DNA of 64,000 nt from Paramacrobiotus metropolitanus (Eukaryota; Tardigrada; Eutardigrada; Parachela; Macrobiotidae): assembly GCF_019649055.1 (NCBI RefSeq), contig NW_026570270.1, positions 558,001-622,000 on the forward strand, read 5' to 3'. Of this stretch, positions 28,379 through 59,036 are shown in pieces (position 1 is the stretch's first letter; every line of letters begins with the position of its first letter). Both the position numbers and the translations under genes were made by a program. The notes below the pieces were generated by a model. That model was not told the origin of the DNA, did not search any database, and worked only from the letters and a program-made list of their open reading frames with translations.

Positions 28379-31300
28379 ATGGCCGAGGCGATACTAAGTG
28401 TTGCGAAGATTGCGGAAGTAGCTGGCCACTGTTATAGCGCTGGAAGGACGGCGCATCGTGTTTCCCAGAATGCAAATTAAAGGCAAACCTTTTTAGGTTG
28501 CGGCCTTAACATCATCATCATGGATGTGTGGGAAAAACGCCAACATAACTTTCACCAACGAGAAGCTCCTTTTAATGGTATTCAGTCACGGCGATACGTG
28601 GACGAACCCGTCGCTTACCGTAATTGACCTCACCGACTCCAACCAGCCTCATGTTAAAGAGACAATCGTCTTCGAAAGACATGCTCTAAATATGAGCAGT
28701 ATCACACGGTTTACTATAAGTTCTGACGATCGCTTTATCCTTGTACAAGGTAAGCAATTCTGTTTGTAGTGTACGTACATATATAGACTGTACCTATTGT
28801 CGTATAGCAACGATGGTTATTGTGATACTTCTTACTTGTTGTTATTACCAGTTATCATTCAGTACTTGAAGTATCGATTGTACTGATGTGTGGTTAATGA
28901 ATAAATATTAACTGCAATACGGAGAGACTTCACACTGTTCGTGTCAAACGCAGGCAAAAATTAGGCTTTGTGACAATGTGATCAACGTGTACCTTGACGA
29001 TGCCCATTGCTCGAATGTTTCAGACGGGGCTAATGTAGCCTGGTTAGTTGAAAGGAATAACGTTGATGGAAAGAAAGTCAAACTGAATCAGGGTCGTCCT
29101 GTTTATTTTTCTCAATGGTTACGTCACCACGGGATTCTGCTGGTGTCCAGCAGCGAAACCATCCATGTAAATACGTTCAATAACTACGTCTTTCGAAGAC
29201 AACGGATAAAGAAAGGGTTGAAAGGGCAGATGGTTACGGACTGTCAGGAAAGCCAGCTTGACAACTGGTACTTCGCTGCGGTAATTCAGCTTAATGTGAG
29301 TATTAGTAGCATATTTGTTTTACCAGCAAACGTTTTTGTCTTCACGCATATACATCAACATTTCCGCGCGATATGTAAAGATTATAAGTCTGAAAAACGT
29401 CTAAGTCTCTAATAAATAATGGGTACGACTATTGCCACCCCTCGTACCCCCTTTTGACTATTGTCACCCCCTTTCTCACACTCTTTGACTATTGGCGTCT
29501 ACTGCCACCCCTTGGCCATTTCTTATAAGAGTTCAAGACACGGGAATCAAGATTGTGAACCAGTGGAAAGGTACAAAATCTGTGTGGAAAAGGAGCAGCC
29601 ATATGTACTTGACTCGGCGCTGCCGGCGTAACCCTCGATACCACTTCTGTGGGCACCACTGATTAAGAGAACCGGAAACAATGTCACCGGGAATCTTTTT
29701 TCGCGCGCGCAGTCCCAAGGGAATGGTCATAATTGTGGACTTTTCGCGATAGAATTCGCTGCGGAAGTCATTAGCACAAGAAATCCTGAAGATGCTAATT
29801 TTAACGTAAAAAAATATGGCCGCATATTAGCGATGCGTCAAGTGTCCCTAAGCTTCGCTTGGCGTCTCTCCCTGCCGGTGGTGACAGGGAAAAAAGAGCA
29901 GCTGGTTGCAAAATTAAAGCAATAAATCGAAAGGTGGTGGGAATAGCCAAAAGGGCGTGTGGTAAGGAGTGACAATAGTCAAAGGGGGTGTCTATTTTAT
30001 TTAAATAAAGGGGTGGCAGTAGTCAAAAGGGGGTGCAAAGGGATGACAACTGCCATTTCCATAAATAATTCTGTGGTTCCGTTAGTATCTGCACAAGACA
30101 ATAACCCAAGCGCTCTAGAATGCTTTATATTTTTAATGTGCGTTTCTTACAGACTCATCAACCGAAAGGATTTCTGGAACTTTACTGCATTAGGGATTAT
30201 AAGATCGTGCCAGAGGTTATTGACGGATTTGCTGGTACATTCTTGTACGCAAGTCATGCGGCTTCCAAGAGATTTTGGTTGCCGATGTTGATTGGCAAGG
30301 AGATTGCCTGATTTTAAGAAACACCAAGCTAAAACAGGAAGACTCCATAAGAATGGGAAAATATGTATCTGTTATTAAAACATTAAGCATACGTACCGCG
30401 ATTCTGACCGGGGAAAACTGCAAATTTAAAGCGGAAAACGATATTCCCGTTGCGGTTAGGGTAAGGTCACCACTTTACTACTCGTATGCAAATTAAATCA
30501 AAGTTCCTTAGAAAAGGTGCTTGAGCTTTGTCATTCGAGGTTCTGAATTTATGTTTCGTAAAACAGAAGTCTCCTATTTTTGCGAATGACCGCACATATG
30601 GTCGACTTATGCTTTACATTTTGTTTAACATATGTACGTATACAGTACTCGATTACTTCGATTATTTCGACCATTACTTTGAGCTCAGTCTTATAAAGAT
30701 TTGTAATGCCATTCCATGCTTAACCGAGCATAGTTATAAGTTTATAACTGTAATTCAGAAACGTGGAAGTCTTCAACTTTATTAGCTGTTGATTCAGGTG
30801 GAAGACGGTGGTACTGATTGCCCTCTTGCAATTGTTGTGACCAAGAAAGGATATATGCATTTATTCGACTACCGCATTATGTGCCATTTGGAGTCGAAGC
30901 GAATTTTCACCGGTATCGCTACCGTTTCCGTTGTGGGACCTTTACGCAAGCCGGGGCTACTGACTGTTGTAGATAGCGAAGGAAAAGTAATTATTAGATA
31001 ATCCAGTATCTATTTATTTCCGAAAGTAACGTCAACCTTACCCTTGTGCTGTTTTGATCTGCGTAGGTATGGGAAGCTGCAGTCTCCCTGGAAAATATTG
31101 TGCCGGTTCTTGTAGCTAAACATTCACCCCGCGAATCGGTAGAATACGCTCTGCTGTGCAAGCGTCCATTGAGGAACGATGTTTTCATGTCGACATTCGA
31201 GGGTCTATTACGTTACGATAAACCAGATTTCGGTGCCATTCTTCCCTTCTGCTTGTTAAACACCGGTCATTTGACAGTGGTTCAGAGTCAGCAAGTGCTT

Positions 31301-32503
31301 ACTGAGTGCTTTAGAGGTTCACTGGGAATACTGCACTTTTCAGGATATATAACACAGCTCTCTCTGCAGTTATTCCAGCGGGTCAGCTTGGAATGGGTGG
31401 TTGCTCTTTATGAGCGTAATGAGACTGCTCCCAATGGCGGAGGTAAGTACTCGTAAAACGATACAGTAAACGGTGTATTTTTACTCTAAAATTTGAGTTG
31501 GGACTTTACCTCTTATATTAGAGTCAAAAATTTAGAACCGATCTAACAGGAGCAAAAAGTAAGTTCAATACATTTGTGTTCTGCACCTCTTTTAGGTCTT
31601 CTTAAGCTGCTAAATGTTCTTAGACTCCATTTGATGTCTAGCAGCGCTTGCCGAGGGAAACATGCTGGAACTGGCCAAGAAAATGTTTGTCGAAGGAAAA
31701 TGCTGGGCAGATGCTGTGCGCGTGCAGGTCAGTGATTACTAAAAACATGCAATCAGGCAAACAATGAGCAAAACTGCTCATACAGTGATACTTAGCATCT
31801 GTCCCACGCTACGCGCGCATGTAAAACTTTTGTGCATCAGGTACAGCTTTCGGAGAGGAGTAAAGATTTCCTTGCCGTTAAAGAATTAGCGTGCATGAGC
31901 GGAGATCCCACCCTGTTGACTGAAGTTGGCAAAATCTGTTTGGACAACGGTCATCTAAATTACGCCATGCAGTGCTTCTTAGATGCGAAATGCTTCACCT
32001 ATTATAACGAAATATGTCTGCTGGCGCAGATGGACAGCACCAACTGTAAATGTTTTTCTCTGGAGATCCGTCTGCAGAACTAAGAAAGCTGTCTTGATGC
32101 AGGTGAATGGAATTTACTTATTCGGTTTCTGGAAGGCATGCAACCCCCGGTCAAGAATTCCCGCTATACTGTAACGCTTGCGCTGGCCTATGGAAGGGCA
32201 CATCGTCTCGCAGATTTGAACAACCTCGGTAGGTGCCGTTTGTAGATGTACGGTACGTGGATGATTTTATTGATTGGTGTCGATGACTTGCTTTCACTGT
32301 ATCTGTACACAGTGGCCGAAGGGACCGGTTCAGCGGCTTCTCCCGAGTCTAAGCTCTGCCGAATATGCGAAGATGGTCCCAAGCAAATGGTGTTTGGGCC
32401 ATGCGGCCACCTGGTCACCTGTGAAGAATGTTCCAAGAAGGTCGATTTGTGTCCAGTTTGCCGCAGCCCAATACAGCAAAAGATGAGAACATATGACTCG
32501 TAA
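28379..32503 (+). pseudogene. Clathrin heavy chain-like RING protein, copy 1 (internally deleted, frameshifted)
   Basis: Recognisable exons: 28379-28417, 28497-28749, 29024-29295, 30153-30460, 30798-30986, 31067-31442, 31642-31727, 31841-32045, 32103-32228 and 32313-32503. Positions and phases match copy 2 (34078-39598). Two defects are visible. Exon 4 is 308 bp, not a multiple of three: it is open from 30153 to a stop at 30311, while the conserved VADVDW segment is read in another frame. Also, the equivalents of copy 2 exons 8-12 and parts of exons 7 and 13 are missing between 31443 and 31642. The propeller start, the last solenoid repeats and the RING (CRIC, PCGH, CEEC, CPVC) remain intact. 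An AATAAA lies at 32649. It is probably a pseudogene unless exon 4 reflects an assembly indel. Confidence 0.65.
29421..30056. mobile_element. MITE-like element in intron 3 of clathrin-RING copy 1
   Basis: The ends are inverted repeats of about 50 bp. The left arm (29421-29475) has two units of GACTATTGYCACCCC separated by CCCCCTTT; the right arm (about 30005-30056) is their complement, with GGGGTGGCAGTAGTCAAAAG. More copies of the unit occur just inside both arms (29489-29515 and 29942-29992). The ~630-bp insertion explains why this intron is 857 bp while the same intron in copy 2 is only 188 bp. It has no convincing transposase ORF. Confidence 0.65.
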
Positions 32504-34077: not shown

Positions 34078-37000
34078 ATGACCCAGACGCCCAAATACGG
34101 CATGATGGAACCGATACTCAGTGTTACAACGATTGCTGAGGTAACTAGGCATCAATGTTGCGGTGATAGTGGGGTCACTGGGGTAACTGGACTGGGGTAC
34201 GCTATGTACATATTGCACAATCTGGAGCATTAAGAAAAACATTTCAGGTTGCGGTGTTAACATCATCATCATGGGTGCACGGGAAAAATCTCAGCATACT
34301 TTCCACCAAGAACAAGCTTCTTCTAACGATCCTCAGTCAAGGCGATACGTGGACGTGCCCATCGCTAACTGTGATTGACCTCACCGACTCAAAGCAGCCT
34401 TGTGTCAAAGAAACGACTATCTTCGAAAAACATATTTTAAATATACCCAATATTATACGATTTACTCTCAGTCCTGATGGGAGCTCCGGCCTTGCGCAAG
34501 GTATGCATTCGAATGCTTTTGAGGTTTCGGTAGAGCTTGGAGAGTAGAAAAACTTCTAGAGAAGTACATAAATTGCTTTAAACAATGCAAAAATTTCTGG
34601 TAAACCGTTACTTCTTGTTTTTTTCTGAACTTCTTAATTAACCGCTTGTTTTGTGTGGGTGAACGCACATCCATTTACTGTTGATTTACATATGTGTCGT
34701 ATCACAGTAATATGCTATTGGACTATGAGATACAGTGAGTATCACTGTTCTTGCACTCCCGTAAAAGCGTGTGCTTTAATGAAAACTTTTATTTCGAAAA
34801 TTCTGGATGCTGTAGACGGGGCAAATGTGGCATGGTTAGTTGGAAAGGATGGTGTCAATGGAACGAGAGTCAAACTGAACCAGGGTCAACCTGTTTGCTT
34901 CTCTCAATGGGTAGCTCCAAAAGGGATTGCACTGATATCCGACCGGGAAACCATCCGCGTGAACACGGATAACAAAGTTCTCTTGCAAAGAGAAAGGATA
35001 AACGATGTGTCGAAAGGTCAAACGATTACTGACTACCAGAGATCCCCACTGTTCTCCTGGTGCTTTGCTGCACTGGCTCAGTTAAATAATGTAAGGAGCC
35101 GTAGCACATACCGGTACTTTGCCGAAAAACTTGTATTCGTTTATGTTTTTCCTTCGGGACATTTAAAAATTATCATGGTAGAAAAAGATACATTCATTTG
35201 TAACTGCACATTGCAAATAATGGGCAAACTGAAACACTCGAAAGGCTGCATTTTGTCGATATCGATGCTCGTACCTAGATTCACCACCCAAAAGGATTTC
35301 TGGATATTCACACCGTCAACTATGGACAGTCGGCCCCGATCTTTATTGACGGTTTTGCTGGTGCATTTCTGCCTTCCGATGGTCGGGACTGGGAACAAGA
35401 AATCCTGGTTGCCGATGTTGACTGGCACGAAGACTGCCTGATTTTTAAAAACATAACACTAACCCATGAAGGCTTCCTGCCAAGGGGAGAAGATGTGTTT
35501 CCTATTAATATTTCGAACATACGAAGTACAAAGCTGACAAATGTAAACTGCACATTTACAACGGAAAACGACATTCCCATTGCGGTTAGGGTAAGGTCAT
35601 ATAATTATCATGCGCATTTAAACCAGAAGTTCCACAGGAACGGTGCTTATGTTCCATTTTTAAGTAAGTGGTCTAAACTCATAATTGTGTTCCCTAAAAT
35701 GGCCGTTGAACAGCAACTCATTTAAAATTTTGTATTTTTAAGGCAGCTCGCTTTTTTATATGCTTTAATATTTTGACTATCAATTGGCCAAGATCAAAAG
35801 GTGGTCTGCAAACGTTGGCTGACACGATTAACCGGTCTAATTATTGAACAGAATTGTAAATAAAAAATTTTGAATAACCTCGTTTTTACAGTTTTTGATA
35901 TCTGTTTAGGTGGACCACGATGCTGACAATATTTCACTTGCCGTTGTTGTGACCAAAAAGGGGTATCTCCATTTATTCGACTACCGCCTCATGTGTCATT
36001 TGGAGACAAAGAGAATTCTCACCGGTTTTACTACCGTCTGCGCTGTGGGACCCCTACGAAAGGAGACGCGACTGACCGTTGTCGATAGCGAAGGAAAAGT
36101 ATTATTCCGCATGGATCGATTTCGTTCCAGATTTGTTGCTAAAGAAGCGTTAATCGTATCATCGTTCGGTTTTGATAACTAGGTGCAAGAAATTGAAATC
36201 TCCTTGGACAATATCGTGCCGGTGTTTGTAGCCAGAAATCTACCGAACGAAGCAGTAGTATACGCAGAGCTAATCGGTCGTCCGTTGAGGAATAACGCTT
36301 TCATGTCGGCATTCTTGGGCCTTGTGCGGCACGAGGCCCCAGATTTTTGTTTAATTCTTTCTTTCTGCTTACTGAACACCGACCATCTAACCAAACTTCA
36401 GGGTCAGGAAGTGCTCACTGAATGCTTTAGAGGTGCACTGAGACTTCCACAGTTCGAAACGCGTTTAATGCAACTGGCTTTCCTGTTATACGAGCGAGTA
36501 GGTTTGGAATGGGTGATTGCTCTATATGGGACTGGCTCGAACGATAAGGGTAAATCGAGCATGAATTTAAGTGTGCACGATTTGTGCCAGCACCTGTATA
36601 TGTACTGCAGTTGCCTGTAAGGGTTTGCAGATAACGAACTCGAAGCCTATATGTAGCTGCAAAATCTGCTTGCGAAATCAGCATGAACAGTGCGTAATTT
36701 TGATAACACTATTAAGCTGTTTGTGGATTGAATTTGTTTTGTAGGACTGCTTATGCTACTAAAAGAAGTTCCACTTCCTGTAATGTCCCTAAGCATCCTT
36801 TGCAAGTATATCACAGTACGCATTTACAGTAAATCCTTTATTGCGCACTTGGTGCACAATAAAGACTAAAGGTAAGTATTTCGCAGCTCGCGGTGCAAAA
36901 CGGAGATATGGGCAGTTTGATGTGGCATGAAGAAGTTGATTATGGTGATCGCATTCCACATGCGGAAAGTGTTGTTGACTTTCTGGTCTCCGGAAACTTA

Positions 37001-39598
37001 CCAGCTCAGCTGATTGATCCTCTTCTTGAAAAGCTCTGTATCAGAGTAAAATGTCTTGACCGATTGGTTTCCTTTCGCATGGCCAAAGGCTTCCCTGTAC
37101 AACTACGCTTCCTGCTTGAACAACTGGAGCTTACAGTACGACTAGTTTCGGTTTCCCCAGTTCTGTTTTTAACTTCCACTAAATTAATTTGGCAAACACA
37201 ACAATGATTTTAGGACAAGAGAGCACAATTGCTCCGGATAATGACAAAAGTAGCGTTGCCTTTGCTGGACCGATTCACCGGTGATATTATGTTGCAGTTG
37301 GAACGACAGCTTGATCTTGACCTGAATTTGGAGCTTCTAAGAAGCATCTACAGAAACGTAGTGGTCGAGATGATTCGACAAGACAAACGGTATATTACAA
37401 CGTTTCTACTTAAAATAAGTTAATCAAGTAAAAAGAGTGTTTTTATTATAGAACGGCGGCTGTTCGTTTCATGGGATATTTAGCCAAAAAAGGCATTCCT
37501 GACGCTTACATTTATACGTGTTTGATTACATACTACGCATCCAAAAATCGTTTATCTGAATTGAAAAGTTTGCTCAGGTGTGCATGGATTTTTTGGAATT
37601 TAATTCGTTGTAAGTTGTAACATACAGATGCATAAGCATAAATTTTGGATCCACTGATCATGCAAAGGTTAATTTATCGCTTAAATTTTATGAAGGGTTT
37701 TAATTTTTTTATGATAGAGATAACCAGTTCTACTCAGCGGCGGTAGTCGGTAAATGGTGTGAAGTGTCCAGCGATCCTAGAATTACACCACTGGCGCTAT
37801 TTATATATGAGGAACGGGAGCTGGACGACGATTTCCTCCGTGTATGCTTAGTTTGGACTTTGGAACAACTTTAGTCCTGTATTGTTGTAGTTGAAAGCGT
37901 GAGACTAACTCTCGTCCCTTCAGGTCACGAACAAATTTGGCTATTTCCGGCAGCAGGCAGGTTATCTGCTAAAGCGTCACAGCGAAGTTCTTTGGCAAAG
38001 AGTGCTGGATGCAAACAGCAATCCTAAGCGCGCTAGCCTTGTGTATGCTATGTTATTTTTGGACGAAAATACAACAGCTTTCAATAATTTTGACCACATT
38101 GTGGTGCTGCTGACCGTTATTAGAAAAACCGATCTGATTTCACACACACAGCTGCTCATTCGGAAACTGTTAAGGAAAGGCTACAACAACGAGCAGGTCA
38201 GGTATGGCAAAACGTGTAAAATGTGTACAAGTCCAGACTGACCGTGTTAGTGTCCTTACAAAAACAATGAGATTATCTAACTCCAGTGAAGATTGTGTCC
38301 CGGTATTATACAGATTTCTACAGCGCTTTTCTGTCCAGTGTCTTGTGAATAGCCAACTACCGGAAGGCGAAATCGATAAGGAATACGGCGAACAGCTTAG
38401 CACGTACGATCCCTTGATAGTCGGAGCAGCGCTTGCAGAAGGGAGACTGCTTGAACTGGCCAAGAAAATGTTTGTACAAGGAAAGTGCTGGAGAGACGCA
38501 GTGCATGTGCAGGTTAATAAGTAGAAAACTATTCGTACTCGTCAAGGAGATCGTGATGGGATAATATTTCCCTTCCCTATAGTTATTACTTTGTAGTACT
38601 TTACGGCGACACTACTGGTAGCGTTTTGTAAAGAGAATATTCCTGGCAATTTCTGCACTGCGTGCATATGCAGGTGAGACTTGGGAGAGATATGATACTA
38701 GTTGACTTTTTGAGCAAAGATTGAGAAAGCCAGTTTTATCGTGGACGAAATGATGTTTTATTGTAAGCGTGTTACCTAACACAAAATGTATGCTGGTTTT
38801 GCTACTGATTTTGGTCAGCTGGTCTGCAGGTCTAGCGTCCAACGGACGAGAGTATAATGTTATACAAAGTAACATAGTTTACTGTACTCAAAACGTTTTT
38901 CGTACGTGCGTAATGCTTTTTTTATCAGATACAGCTATCGCAAAACAGCAAAGACTTCTTGACCGTTAAAGAATTAGCATGCACGAGCGGAGACCCGGGC
39001 TTATTGACCGAAGTTGGCAAGATCTGCTTAGACAACGGCGATTTGAATTACGCCATACAGTGCTTCCTGGATGCAAAATGTTTTCTCTATCATAACGAAA
39101 TATGTTTGCTGGCGCAGAAAGACGATATCAACTGTATGTTGTTTCCCTGGAAATTCTTGTTCATAGATCTAGTTCGCAGATAACTAAATATTCTGTTGCA
39201 GGTGAATGGAATTTACTGATCCGTTTTCTGGAAAGCGCGCAACCTCCGGTAAAAAGTTCCTGCATTACTGTAACGCTGGCACTGGCATATGGAAGGGCAC
39301 ATCGTCTGGCAGATTTGAACAAACTCGGTTAGAATTTGCAAGTGTCACTTTTACAAGTGTCTGCCCATGACGACTGTTAACGTAGCAACGATTTCGTATG
39401 TGTATAGTAGCTGGAGGAACCGGATCGATAGGTTCTCCTGATGCAAACCTTTGCCGAATATGCGACGATAGTCCCAAACGAATAGTATTTGTGCCATGCG
39501 GTCACCTAGCCACCTGCGAAGAATGCTCCAAGAAGGTCGATTTGTGTCCAATTTGTCGCAGCCCGGTGCAGCAAAAGATCAAAACATACGACGCGTAA
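34078..39598 (+). CDS. Clathrin heavy chain-like protein with C-terminal RING finger, copy 2 (intact)
   Basis: Sixteen exons: 34078-34140, 34248-34500, 34816-35090, 35279-35590, 35910-36098, 36183-36549, 36745-36815, 36887-37135, 37214-37389, 37452-37577, 37718-37841, 37924-38201, 38314-38512, 38929-39133, 39202-39327 and 39408-39598. All are in phase, giving 1067 residues; by homology the start may be 34102. Residues 1-364 resemble the clathrin terminal beta-propeller (LTVIDLTDSKQP, PIAVRV, TKKGYLHLFDY). Residues 365-1004 resemble clathrin leg repeats (NQFYSAAVVGKWCE, LDANSNPKRASL, STYDPLIVGAALAEGRLLELAKKMF, CEWNLLIRFLESAQ). Residues 1020-1057 are a C3HC4 RING (CRIC-x11-CGH-x3-C-x2-C-x6-CPIC), which would bind a ubiquitin E2. 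The clathrin proximal leg and trimerization domain are absent. HOPS/CORVET Vps proteins share this order of domains, but the residues match clathrin better. Function is inferred only: an endosomal or coat-linked ubiquitin ligase. Confidence 0.8.
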
Positions 39599-40417
39599 CT
39601 CACAATTGCCTGTCTGTAAAATTCGAGCACCATGCACCAGAGTGTAATGTGTTCTAGCCTTTATCTGCATATTTCTTTAGCTACGAAGTATTTATCGAGG
39701 TTGTGCTGCTTCCATTCGGTACTTTCGCCATTGGGAATGTTCATTTGTTCAACCGAAACTACTTAGTAAATGCTGATATCTTGTTACCTCACCGCTGAAT
39801 TAAAGAGAGGAATGTTTCGCAGCTTTAACCACTGATAAACATGAAAATACATCGCAAATGGAGAATACATAAAACAATGGGACTCTTTTAAAAGTTAAAG
39901 TTTTTGTGTTCATTTTATCTCAAACTGAAAAACCACATCAGCGGATAAAAAATCATTTGAGCTGAATACAATGTCGTTGTGATACTGAACACCGCACTCG
40001 AATCAGACGTCCAAATACACAATGGCAAACCAACAGACATCCGCCGAAAATTCAGCAGATCAGCACGCTAACCGACGTTATAGTCAGCACAATAAACGGC
40101 TCAACCCGTCTCGTTTTGATAACGCCCGTCATCGGTCTGGTTCTCCATGTCCCCGCTCTGGCCCGTTCTACAGCGGTCGTTCGGATATACTATAATTATA
40201 CCAGGCGCGACCTACTGACCTACTTTTAAGCGTTTTATATCCAACTTTTCTTCCTGAATCCAAAAACGTTGGTCCCGACTGAGGAAACTCAAACCTTCCA
40301 GACTTACAGACAAAAACAGAAAACCCGGCGCAACTCACAAATACTGCGTACTCACTGTGTTATTACATACGCTAAACAGCGAAACACAAAAACTGAAACA
40401 AAATCGCTTTCAAAACA
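39599..40417. other. 3' flank of clathrin-RING copy 2
   Basis: 3' UTR and the second copy of the duplicated flank (about 39918-40165, related to 32863-33100). The part from 40260 leads into the minisatellite. An ATG-initiated frame from 40269 opens into the repeat but has no independent support. Confidence 0.4.
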
Positions 40418-41060
40418 ACCTAAGAAACCTGAGAAACCTAAGAAACGTAAGAATAACGTAAGAAACCTAAGAAACCTAAGAAACCTGAGAAACCTAAGAA
40501 ACCTAAGAAACCTAAGAAACCTAAGAAACCTAAGAAACCTGAGAAACCTAAGAAACCTAAGAAACCTAAGAAACCTGAGAAACCTGAGAAACCTAAGAAA
40601 CCTAAGAAACCTAAGAAACCTAAGAAACCTGAGAAACCTAAGAAACCTAAGAAACCCAAGAAACCTAAGAAACCTGAGAAACCTAAGAAACCTAAGAAAC
40701 CCAAGAAACCTAAGAAACCTGAGAAACCTAAGAAACCTAAGAAACCTGAGAAACCCAAGAAACCTAAGAAACCTAAGAAACCTAAGAAACCTAAGAAACC
40801 TGAGGAATCTAAAAAACGTAAGAATAACCTAGGAAACCTATGAAACCTGAGAAACCTAAGAAACCTGAGAAACCTAAGAAACCTGAGAAACCTAAGAAAC
40901 CTGAGAAACCTAAGAAACCTAAGAAACCTAAGAAACCTAAGAAACCTAAGAAACCTAAGAAACCTAAGAAACCTAAGAAACCTAAGAAACTTAAGAAACC
41001 TAAGAAACCTAAGAAACCTAAGAAACCTAAGAAACCTAAGAATAACCTAAGAAACCAAAG
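40418..41060. repeat. 9-bp minisatellite (CCTAAGAAA / CCTGAGAAA)
   Basis: About 640 bp of a 9-bp unit, mostly CCTAAGAAA with interspersed CCTGAGAAA and rare CCCAAGAAA variants, with one interruption near 40808-40840. Because the period is a multiple of three, several frames stay open by arithmetic: RNL repeats and KKP/EKP repeats on the plus strand, GFL/GFSGF on the minus strand. Open frames through it are therefore not evidence of a gene. Confidence 0.95.
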
Positions 41061-41361
41061 AACATTAAAAAGTTAAAAGAAATCTACGAGTTAGAAATAA
41101 AACAAAATTAAAGCTGGTGCGGTCTAGCTAACCATACCTCGAACGACAGCTACTGGCTGCTACACCAAACGCATGGACAGACTTGCTTGAGTGCACTGCC
41201 AGAGCATAACATTGCTTGTTTTGCATTTTCTGAAAACTTTTTTTTCAAGAGTTACTTTGGGTTTTCCTCACTCAAAACACATATAAATATAGTTAAAAAA
41301 CATTTCTATGCGTGTTTCAATCAAAAACGGTCAAATCGGCTGCGCCCGGTAAAATACGATA

Positions 41362-43205: not shown

Positions 43206-43669
43206 ATGGCCGAGCCGATACTTAGCGCTACAATAATTACAGAGGTAAGTGATGAGTATTAATTCGCTGGGGCAAAATGCGCCCTCTTTCAGAATCCCGA
43301 CTCTTCGAGTCTAGAGTAAGTATTTGTATCCACCTTTCAGGTTGCGACATTAACCTCGGCAACATGGATGTGTGGGAAAAACGCCAATATAGTGTCTACC
43401 AAGGACAAGCTCCTTCTAACTATATTCAGTCATGATGACACATGGACAAATCCGTCCTTAACTATCATTGACCTCACCGATTCAAAGCAGCCTCGTGTAA
43501 AAGAGACGACTGTCTTCCAAGGACATGTTATGGATATACAGAATATTAAACTGTTTGCTTTGAGTCCTGATGAGCGCTTTGGACTTGTGCAAGGTAAGCA
43601 TTATTATCGTGCCCAGTAAGCAAAAATTTATGTATTCTTCTTTCTCTCTGGGATGCCGTTCTGCTTTTT

Positions 43670-43800
43670 TTGTATTTCTAAAGCATCAGTTTCTAAAGTT
43701 CTAAAGTATTTCTAAAGTTTCTTTTTTTGTATTTCTAAAGTAAAGTAAAGTATCAGTTTTGTATTTCTAAAGTTTTTTGTATTTCTAAAGTATCAGTTTC
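43670..43800. repeat. Degenerate TATTTCTAAAG repeat
   Basis: The motif TTTCTAAAG, often as TTTTGTATTTCTAAAGTATCAG, recurs about eight times in 130 bp in intron 2 of copy 3. It looks like local slippage or duplication. Confidence 0.7.
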
Positions 43801-44311
43801 CGTGAATGAGAGAATAAACGGCAGCAGACCTTATAATTATTATCATTTCAAATTTCCGACTATCAGTTGCATTGTTTTCTCACAGTTCTTTTATAACGTG
43901 CGCTTTAATAATCGACCGAAGCGAAGCGAAGGTCCTCTATGTTCAGGATAACAGGAATTTTTGTCGGTCATGTCGGTCACGCAATAATCTGTCCGTCGGT
44001 CACGCTGCTCACGCATTATGTAATAGCAGAAACCCTATCCCGGTTCTACGGCAAGCAATTTTTTGACGTGCTTTAGACATCGTCTGAGCACAACACGCCG
44101 TCTTTAGAACGGCATGTTTCAGTATACTTATGGAGCCCCTTTATATGTACATTTTCACGTCTAAAATACTTCGTCCACGGAACTATATTATGGCTTTTGA
44201 AACTCAAAAACACCCATCCAAAGACATCTTTTGGATGAAGAACACATGGGCGCTTTTTCTCCAATAGAACCGGGTATATTATTATTCCAGAGCATAGTGT
44301 GAGGTTATATA

Positions 44312-44510
44312 GGGGGCAAAACCGTCTTAGTGGAGCCGGTTTACGGCGCTGCTGCCGTCACCAGGCTGGAATGTGACGTTACGGCAACACATAATAATTA
44401 CGGCTAAATCGGGCGCGGTACATAACACCATGTTTAGCCACAACGTAAGTATCTCCAGCCGGGTGACGGCAGCAGTGCAGGAGACGGTTCGGGTAGACTG
44501 GTTTTGCCCC
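44312..44510. mobile_element. MITE-like element with GGGGCAAAACC ends
   Basis: It is bounded by imperfect inverted repeats of about 57 bp, beginning GGGGCAAAACC on the left (44313) and ending GGTTTTGCCCC on the right (44510), each with an inner GCTGCTGCCGTCAC or its complement. It is about 200 bp with no ORF and lies in the enlarged intron 2 of clathrin-RING copy 3. Confidence 0.75.
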
Positions 44511-47500
44511 GATATTATGGGAATGCCTGTGTGTTTTCACTGCTGTGTATTTAATAAAACAAATCGGCATTGTAAAAATTTCAAATTTGTTGAATTTTGT
44601 CAACGTGCAAAACCGGTTTCTTTAACATTGCAGACGGTCCGATTCCAGTGCTTCGTGTTTTTCCTTTATGAAAATCGTAGTAAGTTATTGATTTTGCTTA
44701 TTGGTTGTTTTCCTTTAGTGATTTTATTTAGTGCCTTTTATGCGAAATGAATCAATGAGTAAATTCTTTATTTAATAATTTTTTGGAGCAGCAACGTTTT
44801 TATTAGGGCCCGCAGTGGGGTACTAATGTACCCCAACGAGCATAATTTTTGTTTGGCTTGGCCAGTTGCTGTTGACCTACACATAGCTATAGTTTTGCAA
44901 ATCTTTCCGTGTAATCACATGTTGCCGAAGTTAGCATCCAGGTTTTGAATAAGTTTGTTGAGCGACGAAATCTGATGAAAACGTGGGTCAGCAATACTGA
45001 ATGAATGTCGGGTGGAAAGTGGGAAGGAGAGAATTTTGGTACCAAAAAAGTGTTTGGGAATACTGTAAGTTAAACAAAGTGTTTTGTGTACAAAATTTGG
45101 TACCAGGGACCGACATACTTCCCTCAAATGGGTCAATATGTATTTTTAAGGGCGGAATAAGATTTATGGTTGTAAAAAGTACTCGTTGTACTCCTTAGTT
45201 AAGTAATTCGTATGCATTTCTGTATACTCCTTATGAAGAAATACAGTAATTATTGTTTTTAAACTAACACAACTTGATAATTTTTCTCTGCTTGTGCTAG
45301 CTCTACACGTGGACGTGCTTTATCTGTGGAATTTTTGTCAATCTTCTTCCCTAAAATGCTCTACTGTAAACTTTCGTTCTGAGGTTGTTGGCAAATCATT
45401 CAAACTGCATAATATAGGCAGCAGATTTTAATGTTGACTAGAAATATGTGAATTCAAAATTGGACGAAAATTCGTAATACAGGAAAAGATTTTGTTCAGA
45501 ATGGACCATCTTACGGAAATTTCTGGCTTCGCTTCGGTCTTTTAGTGCTAGCCTGCAGCGGTGCACTTCCCTAGTTACCAGTGTTTGAATGCTTCAGACG
45601 GGGCAAATGTAGCATGGTTAGTTGGAAGGGATGAAAAGCATGGAGAAAAAATCAAACTGAATGAAGGCCGTCCAGCTTGTTTTGCTCAGTGGATAACTCC
45701 CAGCTTTTACGGGATTGCGCTGATATCCGACAGCGAAACCATCCATGTAAACGCGCTAAACGAAGTTTATTTCCAAAATGAAAGGATAAGCGAAGTGTCC
45801 AAAGGTCTGCCAGTTACTGACTGGCAGAAATCTTCTGGTGGCGCCTGGTGCTTTATTGCACTGTTTCAAACTGATGTGAGTATCAGTAACACATATTTTT
45901 AGCAGCAAATAACAAATTTATGCTTGCTTCTGCACAGTCATACGATATATGTACATTGTTCACTGACACTTTGGCATTATGTTTTTATGCTGAAAATGGG
46001 AAAAGAAACTGAGGTCAAGGCAGTATTCATAGATACAGTGCTCACTGTGTTAGAGAAGTGCAGGCAGTTTAGAGGTTCGGGCTTCAGATACGTAGTTCCA
46101 GCTTCCAGGTTGCGCGGTTCAAGCAGGTGTAGTAGAAGCGGAAACAACAATCCGAAAATTGAGATCATTTCAGTCCGTTTGTGACAAATTTCAGCCCAGA
46201 GTTTTCAAAACCCTAACAAATTAAGATACTTATTGCTCCTCATAGATTAACCGGCCGAAAGGATTTTTGGAAATTTATTGCCCCATAATCAAAAAAACGA
46301 GAACGATGTTTATTGATGGTTTTGCTGGTACATTCGTGTCTTCCGATTGTGACCTTTATCACGTAACGTTCATGGAGGGAACACAAGAGATCCTGGTTGC
46401 CGATGTAGACTGGCAGGAAGACTGCCTGATTTTCAAACGCATCACTCTAGAGCACCCAGACATATACGGGAAGGGAATGTGTGTTTACTGCTAAAATCAC
46501 GGATGCACAAATCTGTCGGATCCCGAAGCTAACCGATGCGCAGCAGCCATACTGCACCTTTACAACGGAAAAGGATGTGCCCATTGCCGTTAGGGTAAGG
46601 TCATGAGCGTATTTTGGACGAATCTGATGAGCCAAAGGAAGAGTTCTTAAATATTATTGAAAGCTCCGAATGTTCACACATATGCTTCTCAAATTTTTAA
46701 ATTTCTTTGGACGGTAAATGATTTGAGCTACATATACAGTAACAAGGTAACGAACTTCTTTACGAATATTTGGGTTTTACTTACAAACTGGAGATTTAAT
46801 CATTATTCTGTAAGAATTATGATCTGTTTCTTAAACTTTCGCGGCATCAGTTCTTCAGCGCAATCAAAGCTATTTATTGTCGAACAGAATCGTTGTCTAG
46901 AGAAACGAACAATCCTGTGTCCCCATTTTTTTGTCCGCTTAGGTGAAAGACGATGCAAAAACTGACCGTATTGCAGTGGTTGTGACCAAAACCGGGTATC
47001 TTCATGTGTTCGACTACCGTAGCATGTGCCATTTGGAGTCGAAGCGAATTCTAACCGGTGTCACTACCGTTTCCGTTGTGGGACCTTTACAAAAAGGGAT
47101 GACACTGGTTATTGTGGATAGTGAAGGAAAAGTAAACATTCGGATGCGTCGTTGTGTAGCATTTTTATTCGCTAAAAAAACCGCTCGTACGACCACTCCG
47201 TTTCGATATAGGTGTGGGAAGCTGGAGTCTCCCTGGAAAACGTCGTACCGGTGTTAATCGCAAGAAATTTACCCGGCGAAGCAGCTACATACGCATTGCT
47301 GATTCAGCGTCCGTTGAAGAACGATGTTTTCATGTCCGTATTCTTGGGCCTTTTGCGTCATGATACCCCCGATTTTGGCGTAGTTCTTCCCTTATGTTTA
47401 CTGAATACCGGCCATTTGACAATGGTGCAGGGCCAGAATGTACTCACAAAGTGCTTTAAAGGCTCACTGGGACTGCGGCAGTTTGAAGCGCCTCTAACAC

Positions 47501-48148
47501 AACTTGTTCTCCTACTGCATGTGCGAGTCAGTTTGGAATGGGTGATTACTCTATATGGTCCGGCGGGTACCCATGATAAAAGTAAGACGAGTGGTCTAAG
47601 TACTAGAGCAGGGATAACGAGAGAATCCACTCTTTTTTTGGGTAAAACCGAGTTACCCCCGTAACATGAGTTTATCACTGCTTACCACAAATTTGTAAAA
47701 ATAATAAAATGATAAAACGAGAATCCAAGCCACAAAAGTTGGACTATTAAATGGATAAATTATAATACGGTAGCAGCGTACGTACGTTATCACGCAGCCA
47801 ACGCCAAAGGGTAACTCGATTTTAATCAAAACAGGGTGAGTGCAGCCGTTATCCCCGCCTTTGTACGTAATAAAACGGTGTAACCGTGTGCATTTACGAA
47901 CATGCTTTGACTCTTATCAGGGTTTTCATAATTAAATAATTTAATTTTTCATCCAGGAAAGCTTACAAAACTCCCTATGTACTGTACCTGTACAGATATG
48001 TCAGCTCTAAATATAGCTAGACATATCTGTACAAACTGCTGGAAAACCAAAAACAGCCCATCCAGGTTTACTATATGAGATCTACGAATTTGAAATATCT
48101 GCACACAGAAGCAACGTAACTTTCCTAACCTTCAAATGGCTCACCGAC

Positions 48149-48300
48149 ATTTCGTCGACTAACACTTCGTCGACCGACAAAATGTCGACACACTACGTCG
48201 ACCAGGGGCGGAGACTAAAAAAAACTGAAATGGTTTAGCTAAACAATAGTTCGACGGTCGATATCTTGTCGATTCGACGAAGTGACGATCGACGAATTTT
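48149..48300. mobile_element. Short palindromic element rich in CGTCGA
   Basis: About 150 bp with imperfect inverted arms of roughly 50 bp. The left arm has TTCGTCGACTAACACTTCGT and TCGACCGACAAAATGTCGAC; the right arm has the complement of TTCGTCGATCGTCACTTCGT followed by TCGAC-type sequence. It lies in intron 6 of copy 3, which is about 780 bp versus about 195 bp in copy 2. Confidence 0.65.
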
Positions 48301-51241
48301 GAAATTTTCGCCGAAGAAATGGCGGGACATCCTTCAAATTGTTCGTGTTTTGACACTCTGTTTAGGACTATTATTATTGCTAAACGCAATTCCACTCCAT
48401 GCGATGCCCGTACGCGTCCTCCGCAGATTTATCGCAGTACGTGTAATAAAGCAACTGCTTGTCCATAGAGAACCACTAGCCTTTTTGTAGAATTGTATTC
48501 ATTAGCTCGCGGTGCAAAATGGAGATGTGGAGAGCCTGATGCGACATGAAGAAACTGTTGGTATTCCACATGTGGAAAATGTTGTGGGCTTTCTGGTGCA
48601 AGGAAACTTCCCACCACTCTCGATTAATCCTCTTCTTGAAAAGCTCTGTATGAGAGGAAAATGTCTACAATACACCGGTTATTTTCCTTCCGCACTGTTA
48701 ATGGTCTTCCTGTGCAACTGCGCTTTCTGCTTCAACAACTAGAATTTACGGTACGACTACAGTTTTCGTTAAAACTTTCTCTGAATCTGCCTTTGAACTT
48801 GCTTAATTTCACACTTGCAACAATAATTCAGGAACAAAAAGCGCAAATTCTTTCAACAATGACAAACGTACTGATACCTTTGATTGTCCGAAACCCCTAC
48901 AAGTTGAAAATGGTACGACAGCTAGATCGTGACCTGAGTGTAGCGCTTCTGGGAAGCATTCACGGTGACGTTATGGCGGAGCTTGATCGACAAGGAAACC
49001 GGTACATTTCGAAGTTTCCTTTACCAGAATTTTAACCTTATGAAGAACTGTGCATATTTATTACAGAATGGCAACAGCACACTTCATGGAATATCTGGCC
49101 GGAAAAGGCATCACTGATTCATGCATCTATACTTGGTTGATTAGTTATTATGCATCAGAAAATCGTTTACGTGAGCTAACGATTTTCCTGAGGTTTGTGT
49201 AAACGTTTAACCGGCATCTTTGGTATTACGTATGTCAAACACATGCTCTATAAACTATCAGCATACACGTGAATCTTCAAATATTCTAGTTGGATAAATT
49301 TGAGATTTCTTCGACAGAAATAACCATTTGTACTCCGCTGCGACAATTGGCAAATGGTGTGAAGAGTGCAGCGATCCCAGAATCACGCCAGTAGCTCTGA
49401 TTACATATGAAGAACGGAAGCTTGACGGGGACTATATCCGGGTACATTCGTTTTGGAGCATTTGAGTATGATTTCGTTTTAGAAACGTGAGATCTACTGT
49501 TGTCCTTTCAGGTATCGAATAAGTTTGGCTACTTCCTGGAGCAAGCGCGTTACCTGCTAAAGCGCCGCAGCAAAAACCTTTGGCAAAGGGTGCTGGATCG
49601 CAGCAATCCTAAGCGCGACAGCCTTGTGCGAGCCCTGTTGCATCTACAAGTCCAAGATACACCTGTCAGCAATTTTGCACACATTACGATGCTCCTCACC
49701 GTGATGGGGAACACGGATCTTATTTCACAAACGCAAGCGATTATCCACAATCTGCTAAAGAGAAGTCTCAGATGCAATAATGACCAGATTAAGTACAGTA
49801 AACTGTCGGCCCATATCCGCACAATAACACTAAGAAACTAAAAGCAGTTCCAATTAAGATGTACAACGTTACGTATCGATGTTATGTATGTAGATCTCTA
49901 CAGCGCTTTTCTGTCCAGTGTCTGGTCAACAGCCAACTGCTAGAGAACGAGATCGATCAGACTTACGGCGATCAGCTGAGCACATACGATCCCACAATAA
50001 CCGGAGCAGTTTTTGTTGAAGGAAAAATGTTGGAATTGGCAAAGAAAATGTTTGTCCAAGGAAAGTACTGGAGGGACGCCGTACATGTGCAGGTTAGTGA
50101 GCGCAAACTATCTGTTAAACAGTGCCACCTCGCAGGGTATTTTTGGTATTTATACTAATATTAATACGTATTTAGAACTATTCGTACATTTGTGCTTACG
50201 TACGTATCTGTTCGTAATGCTTTTGCCATCTGTTATTTTAAGTAGCGTGCATCAGCGCCAGAATACTTATGCATGTGTGTTGGCTTTTGCTAAATAAGAA
50301 GAAAAACTTTTGCGCATTAGGTACAGCTGTCGCAAGGGAGCCAAGACTTCCTTGCTGTGAAAGAATTAGCAATCATGAGCGGAGATCCCGGCTTACTGGC
50401 TGAAGTTGGCAAGATCTGCTTGGACAACGGTCAACTGAATTATGCCATACAGTGCTTCTTAGATTCGAAATGCTTCACCTATCAAGAAGAAATATGCTTA
50501 TTAGCACAAAAGGACGATGCAAATTGTAAGTGATTTCATTGGAAATTCCTTTTTGAATAGAGTAAACTGTCTATTTGCTGCAGGTGAATGGAATTTACTG
50601 ATCCGTTTTTTGGAAGGCGCGCAACCTATAAAAAAGAGCGGCTGTATTATGGTTACGCTGGCGTTGGCGTATGGAAGGGCACATCGTCTGGCGGACTTGG
50701 ACAAACTCTGTAAGTTTCACTTTTACATGGACGTGTAATGTACATTTAAAAGCGACACGTAACGAGTTTGTTCAAGTTTTTTGTTTGTTTGTATGTGTAC
50801 ATAACGACTTTGTATTGATGATGTATCAACAATTTCGTCTATAAATAGTGACTGGAGGGACCGGATCAGCGGCTTCTCCTGATGCTGATGCTAACCTTTG
50901 TCGAATATGCGTTGATAGCCCGAAACAGAATGGTATTTGTGCCATGCGGTCACCTAGCCACCTGTGAAGAATGTTCCAGGAATGTCGATTTGTGTCCAAT
51001 TTGTCGCAGCCCAGTGCAGCAAAAGATCAAAACATACGACGCGTGAATTGACATAATTAAGTATGTGTGATTTTTGAGTTTACAATCTTTACATTCGTCT
51101 GTAAAATCGAAGCCATTAGATCTGTAACGGTCTGTGACCTGCAAGTTTCGTAGCTTTATAAAATTATAAACTTGGCGAAATTAAGTCGTATCTGGAACCA
51201 AAATAGTGAAGCTGTTAAGAAAATAATGTTCTGCGTTCATT

Positions 51242-53158
51242 TTATCGCAAACTGAAATACCACATCAGCGAAACAAAAATCCAAAAAAGTGATTCGTAGA
51301 CAGGTGTACCGAGTCCTGCCGGGAAGATGATCGTCCTTCCTTCACCTTTATACATGTGGTTCACGCGAAAGTCCCAAAAAAGGTCAACTCTCGCTTCTTC
51401 CCACATTTCTCCTTCTTCGTTCATCTCTTCTATCTCTCTTTCAAATCTCCTTTCTGTTGCTACCGGATCAAGAGGATCTTGGATTCCTTTCTCGACACGT
51501 TGCAACCAATGGTTTAGCCATCTTCCTCTTCCGATGATGAAGCTCTTCACGCATGATAGCCAAGTCCGGTATCTGTTACAGTGGTACCGTTCGATGTGTG
51601 GTTTCCACATTTCGTTTGTCCGCATGATACTTTGTAGTTTCTTTTGGGCATGACCTTTAAGGTCTGCTATTGCGGCATTACATTTCGGCCATTGTGAAAG
51701 GTCATCTTGGGAGGTATTTTCGCAACATTCTGCACATTCCCATTGTGGTTGTATTCTGCACGGGTCCTCGAAGTAGCCGTGGTGACAACTCCTGGCTCGT
51801 TCGTCTAAAGTTAATGTCCGTTGACTCGTTTGCGGATTAACATCTTCCCGTGCTGTGGCTTCTTGTTCACATTCGATTGGGGTCACGCTTATGTCCTCAG
51901 AGGATATTTCGATAACCTCTGGTTCTTTTTCTGTTCGGTGACCTTTCAATTGTTCGAGTGCCTTGTTGCGGATTTCACTTGTAAACATCTGTTCCTCTTC
52001 AGCTATTCGTTTCAAAACCCGTAACCTTTCACTCTTTTTATCCTTCCCCACTTTAGCCGTCTTTATTTCCAGTGCCTCTGGTACTGGGATAGGCCTTGCC
52101 CAATCCATGCCAGGCACGAGCGATTGTTTCGCTGCAGCTGTCGCTTCTTTCTGTGTGGCAGCTATCTCTTCAAGTGTTGGTGACCTTTCGTCATTGATAG
52201 CAGAGTGTGGTTCGAAAAAGGGTTCCTTTTGAAGATCACGTTCTGTTATTTCTTCTTTGGCTTTATCTGGTGACCTTTCATTTTGGGTAGCAGATCGAGG
52301 TTCGAAGAAATTCGGAGTACACTCTGGTACTTTTATCGCCGGTGACCTTTCATCTTCCTTTCCCAGTGCCTCTGGTACTGGGATAACTTTTTCGACACAA
52401 TCTTTTTCTGTGGCTCCTTGCTTACAGTCATCTGCGATCATACTTCTCCCGTTCGGGAGAAATATGATCGCCTCATCCATGTCTGGCGCAAGCGGCTCCT
52501 TTTTCCTTCCGTTGACTTTTGCACTTTCACTTTTCTTCTCCGGTGCCTCTGGTACCGGGATTATCCGTTGGCTGATCTCGTTCTGCTGCACGCTCGTTAT
52601 TCCCGGTGCCTCTAGTACTGGGATGACCTTTCCTCTTCCCTTTTGTGGCAGCATTGTCCGGTTCAGTGTGTTTTCAATTTCCTGCTGGATCACTTTCAAC
52701 TGCTCAAATGTTGACAATTCTTTTTGCACCATCTTTTTATTTTCATTTCCCGGTGCCTCTGGTACTGGGATTAGCGTTTTATTATCCGTTTGAGCATTTC
52801 CCGTCTGTTTTACAAGTTCGGTGACCTTTCCGACTTGAACTTCGGCGACTGGTTTTGGGTCCTCTTCTTTCTCTTCTTCGCCTTCGTTATCCATTAGTAC
52901 GAACTTCTTCTCTAAGAAGTCGAATCCCAATAACACCTGTACGTCGTCACACTTCGGTCGGACGTAAAAGGAATGTTCGCTAGTCTTCTTCCTTAAGGTC
53001 ACCGGTGCTACACAGTAGTGCGTCACCATGAATCCTGACGTTCCACTAATTCCATTTATTCTCACCAGTCTGTCTGGTGGTAGTGGGAGCATATGAAGTC
53101 CATTCTTCTCACAAAACGGTTTGCTGATCAGCGACGTCTCAGCGTCGGTGTCCAACAT
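51242..53158 (-). CDS. Retroelement ORF4: protease-like domain plus repeat-rich tail
   Basis: This 638-residue frame starts with a retropepsin-like segment: LDTDAETSLI near its start and LLGFDFL about 75 residues later, matching the usual LDTGA and LLGxDFL pair. The first motif has Asp in place of the Gly that follows the catalytic DT. The rest is charged and repetitive, with five copies of IPVPEA or IPVLEA followed by PG or L, and several ERSP. Near the end is a Cys/His-rich stretch (CHHGYFEDPC, WECAECCE) of unknown role. The open frame overlaps ORF3 by about 31 nt, so it was probably reached by a -1 shift. The last codons (YFSLR and stop) are encoded by flank DNA shared with the clathrin-RING genes. 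Confidence 0.65.
   Translation of the reverse strand: MLDTDAETSLISKPFCEKNGLHMLPLPPDRLVRINGISGTSGFMVTHYCVAPVTLRKKTSEHSFYVRPKCDDVQVLLGFDFLEKKFVLMDNEGEEEKEEDPKPVAEVQVGKVTELVKQTGNAQTDNKTLIPVPEAPGNENKKMVQKELSTFEQLKVIQQEIENTLNRTMLPQKGRGKVIPVLEAPGITSVQQNEISQRIIPVPEAPEKKSESAKVNGRKKEPLAPDMDEAIIFLPNGRSMIADDCKQGATEKDCVEKVIPVPEALGKEDERSPAIKVPECTPNFFEPRSATQNERSPDKAKEEITERDLQKEPFFEPHSAINDERSPTLEEIAATQKEATAAAKQSLVPGMDWARPIPVPEALEIKTAKVGKDKKSERLRVLKRIAEEEQMFTSEIRNKALEQLKGHRTEKEPEVIEISSEDISVTPIECEQEATAREDVNPQTSQRTLTLDERARSCHHGYFEDPCRIQPQWECAECCENTSQDDLSQWPKCNAAIADLKGHAQKKLQSIMRTNEMWKPHIERYHCNRYRTWLSCVKSFIIGRGRWLNHWLQRVEKGIQDPLDPVATERRFEREIEEMNEEGEMWEEARVDLFWDFRVNHMYKGEGRTIIFPAGLGTPVYESLFWIFVSLMWYFSLR
52065..52795 (-). 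repeat. Interspersed IPVPEA-coding repeats
   Basis: Five copies of a ~20-bp segment, on the plus strand approximately GTGCCTCTGGTACTGGGAT, lie near 52070, 52366, 52540, 52600 and 52762. They encode IPVPEA/IPVLEA followed by PG, LG, PE or LE. Spacing varies and the DNA is more alike than the sequence between copies. Confidence 0.75.
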
Positions 53159-53709
53159 TGCGTTGACTTTATGTCTCCCACTTTCACTTCGTGAGTGTAT
53201 GCTTCAATTCTCTTGGGCAATTTTCCATTTTGAATCTTCAAGGTGTGAATCTTACATTTCACAGGGATGAGCGATACTGGTTCCGGGTCCATATCGGGAA
53301 GCACTTGTCCTTTTGCTGGAGCGCTATGACCTTTCAGTATTTCGCTCAGCTTATCAATCCTGTGTGGAACGTTAGTCCGAACATCGTAATATTTTCGCGG
53401 CTTTTCTTTATTTGTTTGCTTCTCTGTATCCATTTTACCGCTAATGACCTTTTCCACATTCTGCACTTGCTCATTAGCTTTTGTGCTGTGCATGTGACCT
53501 TTAGTCACTTCATTTATCGTTTGATGGATCAGTTCCTCTTTGCGGTTTTCATTTCGCTTATCTCGTAGCTTCTCAATGACCTCACTTGTTATTTGGTCCG
53601 CTCGCTTCAATTCGTCTTCTTCACTATCTTTCATCTCATCTGGTGACCTTTTATATGTAATCATATCATATCCTTTTTCGGTCATCCATTCGATCACCTT
53701 CGCGGACAC
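53128..53709 (-). CDS. Retroelement ORF3: charged linker leading into the protease
   Basis: A 193-residue frame rich in Lys and Glu. It ends with a segment (EVKVGDIKS) that, by comparison with retropepsins, should run straight into the LDT motif of ORF4, one base displaced. It overlaps ORF2 by about 16 nt and is itself in the -1 frame of ORF2. No independent domain was recognised and it probably does not start at its own ATG. Confidence 0.5.
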   Translation of the reverse strand: MSAKVIEWMTEKGYDMITYKRSPDEMKDSEEDELKRADQITSEVIEKLRDKRNENRKEELIHQTINEVTKGHMHSTKANEQVQNVEKVISGKMDTEKQTNKEKPRKYYDVRTNVPHRIDKLSEILKGHSAPAKGQVLPDMDPEPVSLIPVKCKIHTLKIQNGKLPKRIEAYTHEVKVGDIKSTQCWTPTLRRR

Positions 53710-55043: not shown

Positions 55044-55123
55044 TGCAGTACCATTCTGCAGTGGTGACCTTTCCCTTTTATCCGGTGGTTTAGGGTCGGG
55101 TCGATCAGTAGGCTCACCGGTGC

Positions 55124-58921: not shown

Positions 58922-59036
58922 GTTGATCGGATAACTTGGACGCTCCTGTCAATTGTTCTCACACACACGTTATTGTATGGTTTATTCGGTTGTCCTAAAG
59001 GCCACTTTGTGCTTCGAAATTTTTCTAAGTCCTTTG

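Follow-up and report, generated by a model that had tools for sequence, protein, structure and literature searches.

Few eukaryotic proteins are as constrained as clathrin heavy chain. A truncated relative of it is already known in animals, CLHC1 (clathrin heavy chain linker domain-containing 1), for which we know of no described RING. CHC22, the vertebrate paralogue of the heavy chain CHC17, is a full-length clathrin. Two published accounts describe CHC22 as having arisen by duplication and as mediating a separate transport route (PMC6548504, PMC11445476). A propeller, an alpha-solenoid and a C-terminal RING occur together in Sea4/MIOS and in several HOPS/CORVET subunits, while Sea2/WDR24 and Sea3/WDR59 of the SEA/GATOR2 complex carry a propeller and a RING, according to a further account (PMC8534245). 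A gene of the tardigrade Paramacrobiotus metropolitanus has the same propeller-solenoid-RING plan as Sea4 and these HOPS/CORVET subunits, but it belongs to a different sequence family, with a clathrin solenoid and an IAP-type RING. The likeness is one of convergent architecture. The gene, which we call copy B, almost certainly encodes a truncated clathrin heavy chain fused to a RING.

Copy B (LOC129592086 in RefSeq, RING included) lies on the forward strand at positions 34078-39598 of the window, the whole 64,000-nucleotide stretch of DNA that was analyzed. An automatic spliced alignment of the human and the species' own clathrin against the window (210/693 and 214/708 identical residues, respectively) was jumpy and contained spurious introns, and was therefore replaced by splicing by hand. 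The hand splice has 16 exons and 15 introns, all GT-AG, with one terminal stop. Exon 1 (34078-34140) holds the start codon and the N-terminus of the propeller, which continues through exons 2 (34248-34500), 3 (34816-35090) and 4 (35279-35590) to its last blades in exon 5 (35910-36098). Exon 6 (36183-36549) contains the propeller end and a shortened linker with the first helices. Leg helices follow in exons 7 (36745-36815), 8 (36887-37135) and 9 (37214-37389), then clathrin repeats in exons 10 (37452-37577), 11 (37718-37841) and 12 (37924-38201). After exon 13 (38314-38512) come further leg helices in exon 14 (38929-39133), the last clathrin-like exon, 15 (39202-39327), and exon 16 (39408-39598), which carries an IAP-type C3HC4 RING, an aromatic C-terminal tail and the stop. 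With the exon 13 acceptor of RefSeq and the paralogues, at 38314, the product is exactly 1067 residues long, as the sequence-only reading had claimed for an intact product; an acceptor at 38287 instead would add nine residues (1076). The RefSeq protein P0001 (isoform X2, 1040 aa) matches the hand splice except at two alternative splice choices in exons 12/13; it lacks 27 internal residues of exon 12. The open reading of copy B appears not to be a chance pattern, since F, G and H, three paralogues, repeat the unbroken 16-exon reading with intron phases identical to those of B; a chance open frame was rejected.

In the clathrin part the propeller comes first and the distal-leg repeats follow, as in clathrin heavy chain. 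The Pfam Clathrin repeat (PF00637) scores 54.9 bits in copy B (cut-off 29.6) and is present in all four proteins scanned with Pfam. The 37-position Clathrin_propel model is not listed in the Pfam scan of copy B, and the propeller assignment thus rests on matches to the PDB. As a single sequence, copy B matches clathrin heavy chain (1.2e-20) and, weakly, isolated clathrin propellers (about 4.5e-4). A profile of four family members matches clathrin heavy chain at 1.1e-54 over the propeller and distal leg, and its best match to a solved clathrin propeller is 6.8e-19 (chain residues 78-366). Profile positions 429-979 align to the leg repeats at clathrin residues 673-1193. The fusion of clathrin and RING proposed by the sequence-only reading is thereby borne out by the gene model, Pfam and the PDB. 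Copy B is only 24% identical to an ordinary clathrin heavy chain (P0003), over 57% of the query. Across the P. metropolitanus genome Clathrin_propel matches only the ordinary clathrin gene, on contig C5, and all 12 matches of PF00637 are on C5, none of them in window exons; the divergence of the family from clathrin is thus great. AlphaFold gave a poor model of copy B for the propeller and the RING.

A divergent HOPS/CORVET protein (Vps11, Vps18, Vps41 or Vps8) would have the same plan, but this origin is hardly credible and was rejected. The Pfam scans list no Vps-specific family, and the 60 of 79 PDB matches listed include clathrin and no Vps protein. The independence from the Vps proteins asserted from the sequence is therefore supported.

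Homology to clathrin stops at approximately residue 1193 and the RING exon and stop come next, after the distal leg, where the sequence-only reading had placed the RING. The proximal leg, light-chain site and trimerization hub of clathrin heavy chain are absent, and in the family-profile alignment most of the linker and first leg repeats are gone from copy B. The peptide-binding surface is also changed. In one alignment, none of six family copies keeps any of the eight residues T87, Q89, F91, K96, K98, F27, Q152 and I154, which we take to form the clathrin-box/W-box pocket in human clathrin. Among 27 positions inspected, T302 is kept in 6/6 copies, and a handful of others survive in one or two copies. 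The protein might still work at clathrin coats, with its distal leg lying beside ordinary clathrin legs and bringing an E3 to coated cargo. The part that is kept, the distal leg and knee to about residue 1193, would suit such a role, but the missing proximal leg and hub, the lost pocket residues and the low identity to ordinary clathrin make it quite improbable.

The introns record where the clathrin part came from. Seven of the 15 introns of copy B share both alignment column and phase with the species' ordinary clathrin gene (9/15 if two read by eye are included), and both introns flanking exon 4 are at clathrin positions. The clathrin gene was thus duplicated as DNA, and an origin as a retrocopy was rejected. 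Four further introns are common to B, F, G and H and absent from the ordinary clathrin gene, including the one that precedes the RING exon.

Copy B belongs to a gene family of P. metropolitanus that has at least nine loci, spread over four contigs: three in tandem in the window, four on C7, and one each on C22 and C206. One ancestral fusion best explains the readings of these loci. It is very unlikely that the RING exon was taken from a neighboring gene by an error of the gene model, even though an unspliced exon 15 would reach a stop just past its donor, and the RefSeq isoform X2 of paralogue E (P0002) ends without a RING. At each of the nine loci, RING sequence lies downstream of the clathrin exons; B, F, G and H share the same phase-1 junction before the RING; and RefSeq joins the RING exon to the clathrin-like exons in B. 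The neighbor-gene explanation was accordingly rejected, and the RefSeq model of copy B does not show the unjoined RING exon against which the sequence-only reading had cautioned. Database searches returned no relative outside P. metropolitanus other than an ordinary clathrin heavy chain, P0003. Scoring was limited each time to the roughly 7,990 candidates with the most words in common, and the last search missed P0002 itself, so this negative result does not establish that the family is absent elsewhere.

The RING itself (PF13920, 55.9 bits, cut-off 27) resembles those of the IAP-type E3s (XIAP, BIRC7, cIAPs) and MDM2 in sequence, ligand spacing and C-terminal aromatic residue, and the four-member profile matches IAP RINGs in the PDB at 8e-14. 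In the 1067-residue model the zinc ligands are C1020, C1023, C1035, H1037, C1041, C1044, C1051 and C1054, with IAP spacing. R1055 follows the last cysteine, and Y1065 in the tail aligns with a phenylalanine in the solved structure of BIRC7. Residues of these two kinds have a role in dimeric E2-ubiquitin binding. All eight ligands, the arginine and the tail Tyr/Phe are kept in the eight readable RINGs of the family, a count that omits copy C, where a frame break disrupts the RING. When 10 other RINGs of the genome, out of 150 RING matches listed, were placed in a tree with the eight family RINGs, a branch with support 92/93 separated the family from the rest; L035 was taken as family in this tree. 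A separate comparison set the family against 22 of 30 fetched RING loci, counting L035 as an outsider and leaving out seven loci of the family itself and L027, which has a stop. Unlike the IAPs and MDM2, copy B has no BIR or p53-binding domain in its Pfam list and has a clathrin-derived N-terminus instead. The IAP type of the RING, the loss of the linker region and the gene family had not been part of the sequence-only reading.

Selection acts on both the clathrin part and the RING. In the C7 copies it is strongest on the RING and weakest on the propeller: pN/pS summed over the six pairs of D to G is 0.47 for the propeller, 0.40 and 0.32 for the two halves of the leg, and 0.18 for the RING. 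In each of these six pairs dN/dS is lower for the RING than for any of the other three parts. The gradient is not strict in each pair (D-F has 0.32 in the first half of the leg and 0.29 in the propeller). Ratios from most comparisons with B or H were left unused because dS is saturated. A gene of the same structure and origin could also have a RING that is purely structural, holding together a membrane-tether or sensor complex with no ubiquitin transfer, a role reported for SEA subunits and conceivable in HOPS/CORVET subunits. In yeast, the SEA proteins that carry a RING depend on it for binding to the other parts of the complex; the same account also asks whether SEA/GATOR2 may be an E3 (PMC8534245). 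We consider a structural RING rather unlikely, because the RING belongs to the IAP/MDM2 type, in which the relatives of solved structure bear the names of E3 ligases or IAPs, because its features are kept in every readable copy, and because no other part of the C7 copies is as constrained.

We lean towards reading copy B as a clathrin-derived, dimeric E3 of the IAP-type RING, with the propeller and leg as a substrate-recognition arm. Its ancestor arose from a clathrin heavy chain gene that was duplicated as DNA, lost most of the linker and first leg repeats, and acquired an IAP-type RING exon where clathrin has its proximal leg and trimerization hub. The fusion protein would presumably no longer build clathrin cages. 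The RING would dimerize the protein and recruit a charged E2; since the AlphaFold model of the RING alone was poor, as were the propeller and RING in the model of copy B, dimerization rests on sequence. The clathrin-type helical leg would serve as a spacer. The N-terminal propeller, without the main clathrin peptide-pocket residues, may bind a target, such that the dimeric RING E3 would receive its substrates from two propellers. This suggests that a protein of vesicle coats was converted into one that tags others with ubiquitin. If so, a clathrin that was truncated, stripped of the parts required for trimerization, given a RING and multiplied would show that the propeller-solenoid-RING plan of tethering and nutrient-sensing complexes can be reached from a coat protein. 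The genomic origin of the plan would be traceable here through shared introns and tandem copies, and the family would be a direct test of the plan as a natural route to ubiquitin signaling.

A more speculative possibility, which we hold to be doubtful, is that the tandem E3 set is a diversifying recognition system, in which propellers vary for different targets while the RING end stays fixed. The targets may be foreign, damaged or stress proteins. The logic would be comparable to that of the expanded MATH-BATH, F-box and TRIM families of other animals. 

Some copies of the family are damaged or irregular, a point against the dimeric E3 reading. In this assembly copy A (28379-32500, forward strand) keeps its RING, has a frame-shifted exon 4, and lacks exons 7-12 with part of exon 13, from residue 488 to about residue 874. 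Copy C (43206-51043, forward strand) has full-length clathrin-like matches with irregular stretches at exons 4, 8/9 and 12/13, and the two halves of its RING exon are in different frames in this assembly. Exon 15 of copy D is irregular. Among the window copies, dN/dS totals leave out E13b and RINGc; E13 of copy C, which had been placed out of frame, was dropped, and E4c and E12 have no partner. The ratio is 0.35 for the clathrin part and 0.27 for the RING between B and A, and 0.29 for the clathrin part between B and C. Between A and C it is 0.45 in the short RING piece comparable in A, B and C (38 codons), higher than the 0.32 of the clathrin part, and single exons of the window copies reach up to 0.78 (E5, A-C).

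The eutardigrade Paramacrobiotus metropolitanus (Macrobiotidae; assembly of 170 Mb in 533 contigs) encodes a shortened clathrin heavy chain that ends in an IAP-type RING, and this gene has been kept by selection and has multiplied. Copy B (window 34078-39598, plus strand) was spliced by hand into 16 exons, giving a 1076-residue model with 15 introns, all GT-AG, and no internal stops. A word-based protein database search returned a single match, isoform X2 of P. metropolitanus LOC129592086, with 97% identity over the whole query; in one run this search did not return P0002, the RefSeq isoform X2 of the paralogous copy E. The RefSeq protein of copy B is the same as the hand splice except that 27 residues are absent from exon 12 and exon 13 begins nine residues later. 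Swapping only the RefSeq exon-13 acceptor into the hand splice yields the 1067-residue product of the sequence-only reading. RefSeq distinguishes isoforms of LOC129592086, a sign that transcripts may stand behind the model.

The propeller and leg had been assigned to clathrin rather than to Vps proteins, and profile searches bear this out. Copy B contains PF00637 (54.9 bits, cut-off 29.6), and the Pfam scan found no Vps-specific family in it. In an alignment of the RefSeq proteins of copies B and E with copies F and G, all four proteins match PF00637 and three match the RING model PF13920, the exception by sequence being P0002. Against PDB sequences, the profile of this alignment matched the clathrin heavy chain at 1.1e−54 (profile 429-979 to clathrin 673-1193), and solved propellers of clathrin scored about 7e−19; no Vps proteins are among the best 60 of 79 matches. 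Pfam's short propeller model does not match copy B and, genome-wide, hits only the ordinary clathrin heavy chain gene on contig C5, as do all 12 PF00637 matches of the genome scan (none in the window). The clathrin-RING family is thus very divergent. Clathrin has about 300 residues between the propeller and leg matches and the family about 40, the exact size depending on the aligner, so that this stretch, the linker and the first repeats of the leg, is either gone or past recognition.

The RING of copy B is an IAP-type C3HC4 domain. The best solved matches to exon 16 are BIRC7 (1.5e−13) and XIAP (5.7e−13), followed by other IAPs and MYLIP, with MDM2 lower down. In the 1067-residue model the zinc ligands are C1020, C1023, C1035, H1037, C1041, C1044, C1051 and C1054, followed by R1055 and a tail Y1065 that aligns with a Phe of BIRC7. 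An Arg after the last Cys and a tail aromatic residue bind E2-ubiquitin in dimeric RINGs. The ligands, Arg and tail aromatic are kept in all eight readable family RINGs, which form one side of a branch (support 92/93) in a tree with 10 other RINGs of the genome. This tree has 55 columns, resolves poorly elsewhere, as expected, and leaves out most of the 150 genome RING matches. Two other groups of RINGs were seen. An identical RING sequence occurs at 12 of 30 fetched RING loci (L022-L026, L028-L033, L038; contigs C148, C172, C208, C1, C160, C7, C82, C130, C342, C405 and C53), as if borne by a mobile element, and a cluster of six RING matches, all on the same strand at C83:452434-474490, is a possible second tandem family.

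The clathrin-RING family comprises nine loci on four contigs. Copies A (28379-32500) and C (43206-51043), found by tblastn of the B product against the window, are in tandem with B, all on the plus strand. A whole-genome RING search, in which 150 of 218 candidates were scored, and a search with P0002 reached four copies on C7 (D to G, within 2780313-2826468, minus strand), copy H (C22:95673-100241) and copy J on C206, of which about 1.65 kb was read, comprising the last clathrin exons and the RING. The P0002 search also found a further fragment on C278. Copies B, F, G and H are open across all 16 exons with identical intron phases, the first codon of H being unsettled. Copy E has the same phases and copy D one extra intron; exon 15 is irregular in the assembly in both. 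P0002 stops short of the RING, yet the RING exon follows in the DNA. As assembled, copy A is missing residues 488 to about 874 and shifts frame in exon 4; copy C is irregular in places and shifts frame inside the RING exon. A lone RING-like stretch lies between copies D and E (C7:2792544-2792710), with clathrin matches absent alongside. Between B and C (window 40417-41062), about 71 copies of the 9-base tandem repeat AACCTAAGA give long pseudo-open frames.

The ordinary clathrin gene, whose first propeller match is at C5:2897025, reads very close to the human protein, with an apparent frame change in a conserved stretch (about 5540-5590 of its reverse-complemented locus, L013) that is perhaps an assembly error. 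By raw count, seven of the 15 introns of copy B share column and phase with introns of this gene (after residues 197, 301, 364, 510, 693, 903 and 971 of the 1076-residue model); the intron at 301 is two columns off in copy H with one guide. Two more matches were made by eye: a phase-1 intron after residue 105, misaligned because the clathrin N-terminus is absent from the fetched sequence, and a phase-2 intron separating exon 12 from exon 13, which holds with the RefSeq acceptor and is present in F, G and H. Four introns common to B, F, G and H (after B residues 486, 651, 735 and 1013) are not matched in both position and phase by any intron of the clathrin gene; for that after 651, a clathrin intron in a different phase lies three columns away. 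Among these four is the intron preceding the RING exon. Taken together, the introns shared with the clathrin gene and the four confined to the family mean that the clathrin gene was duplicated as DNA, followed, most simply, by a single fusion and then by the spread of copies.

Both parts of the protein are under purifying selection, as judged from dN/dS in copies A to C and pN/pS in copies D to G, and in the C7 copies the RING is the most constrained. Over the clathrin part, dN/dS is 0.35 for B-A (467 codons), 0.29 for B-C (602) and 0.32 for A-C (468). The B-A value for the RING exon is 0.27 (62 codons), and over the 38 codons of the RING that can be compared across A, B and C it is 0.23 (B-A), 0.27 (B-C) and 0.45 (A-C). 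Summed over the six pairs of D to G, pN/pS falls from 0.47 in the propeller to 0.40 and 0.32 in the first and second leg halves and 0.18 in the RING, with pS level along the protein (0.47-0.52). In all six pairs dN/dS is lowest in the RING; the propeller and first leg half swap rank in one. That the propeller is less constrained would suit a recognition end, but also simple relaxation.

Since the hub and light-chain site are absent, the clathrin-RING protein probably does not form triskelia; a RING dimer most likely links two arms in place of the hub. None of the eight named residues of the clathrin-box and W-box pockets is kept in any of six copies in one alignment, and the propeller probably binds partners other than those of clathrin, which the RING would then ubiquitylate. 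Predicted structure models were weak. The main rival is a purely structural RING, as reported for the SEA subunits in a paper that also raises a possible E3 role for SEA/GATOR2 (PMC8534245). The propeller-solenoid-RING plan is already known; its arrival from clathrin is, as far as we could see, undescribed. In line with the sequence-only reading, which knew of no such family, no description of the architecture appears in titles and abstract starts of the open-licence papers listed for clathrin heavy chain with RING, protocoatomers or tardigrades; a search on RING dimers likewise gave none, and a term search of the main text of the P. metropolitanus transcriptome paper did not find the word clathrin (PMC11191345).

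Elsewhere in the window, at 14733-15392 and 18315-18908 on the plus strand, a double-stranded-RNA-binding motif that scores weakly (17.7 bits, under the cut-off of 23) is followed some 3 kb further downstream by an adenosine-deaminase (editase) domain (Pfam A_deamin, 160 bits); the two are possibly a single ADAR-like gene. Beside copy C, on the minus strand (51242-58948), are long open frames, among them ones of 1274, 502 and 653 codons. The 1274-codon frame has no Pfam match. The 653-codon frame matches gag-asp_proteas at 27.2 bits (below the cut-off of 28.2) and Asp_protease_2 at 26.1 bits (above the cut-off of 24.3), and this region is perhaps a retrotransposon.
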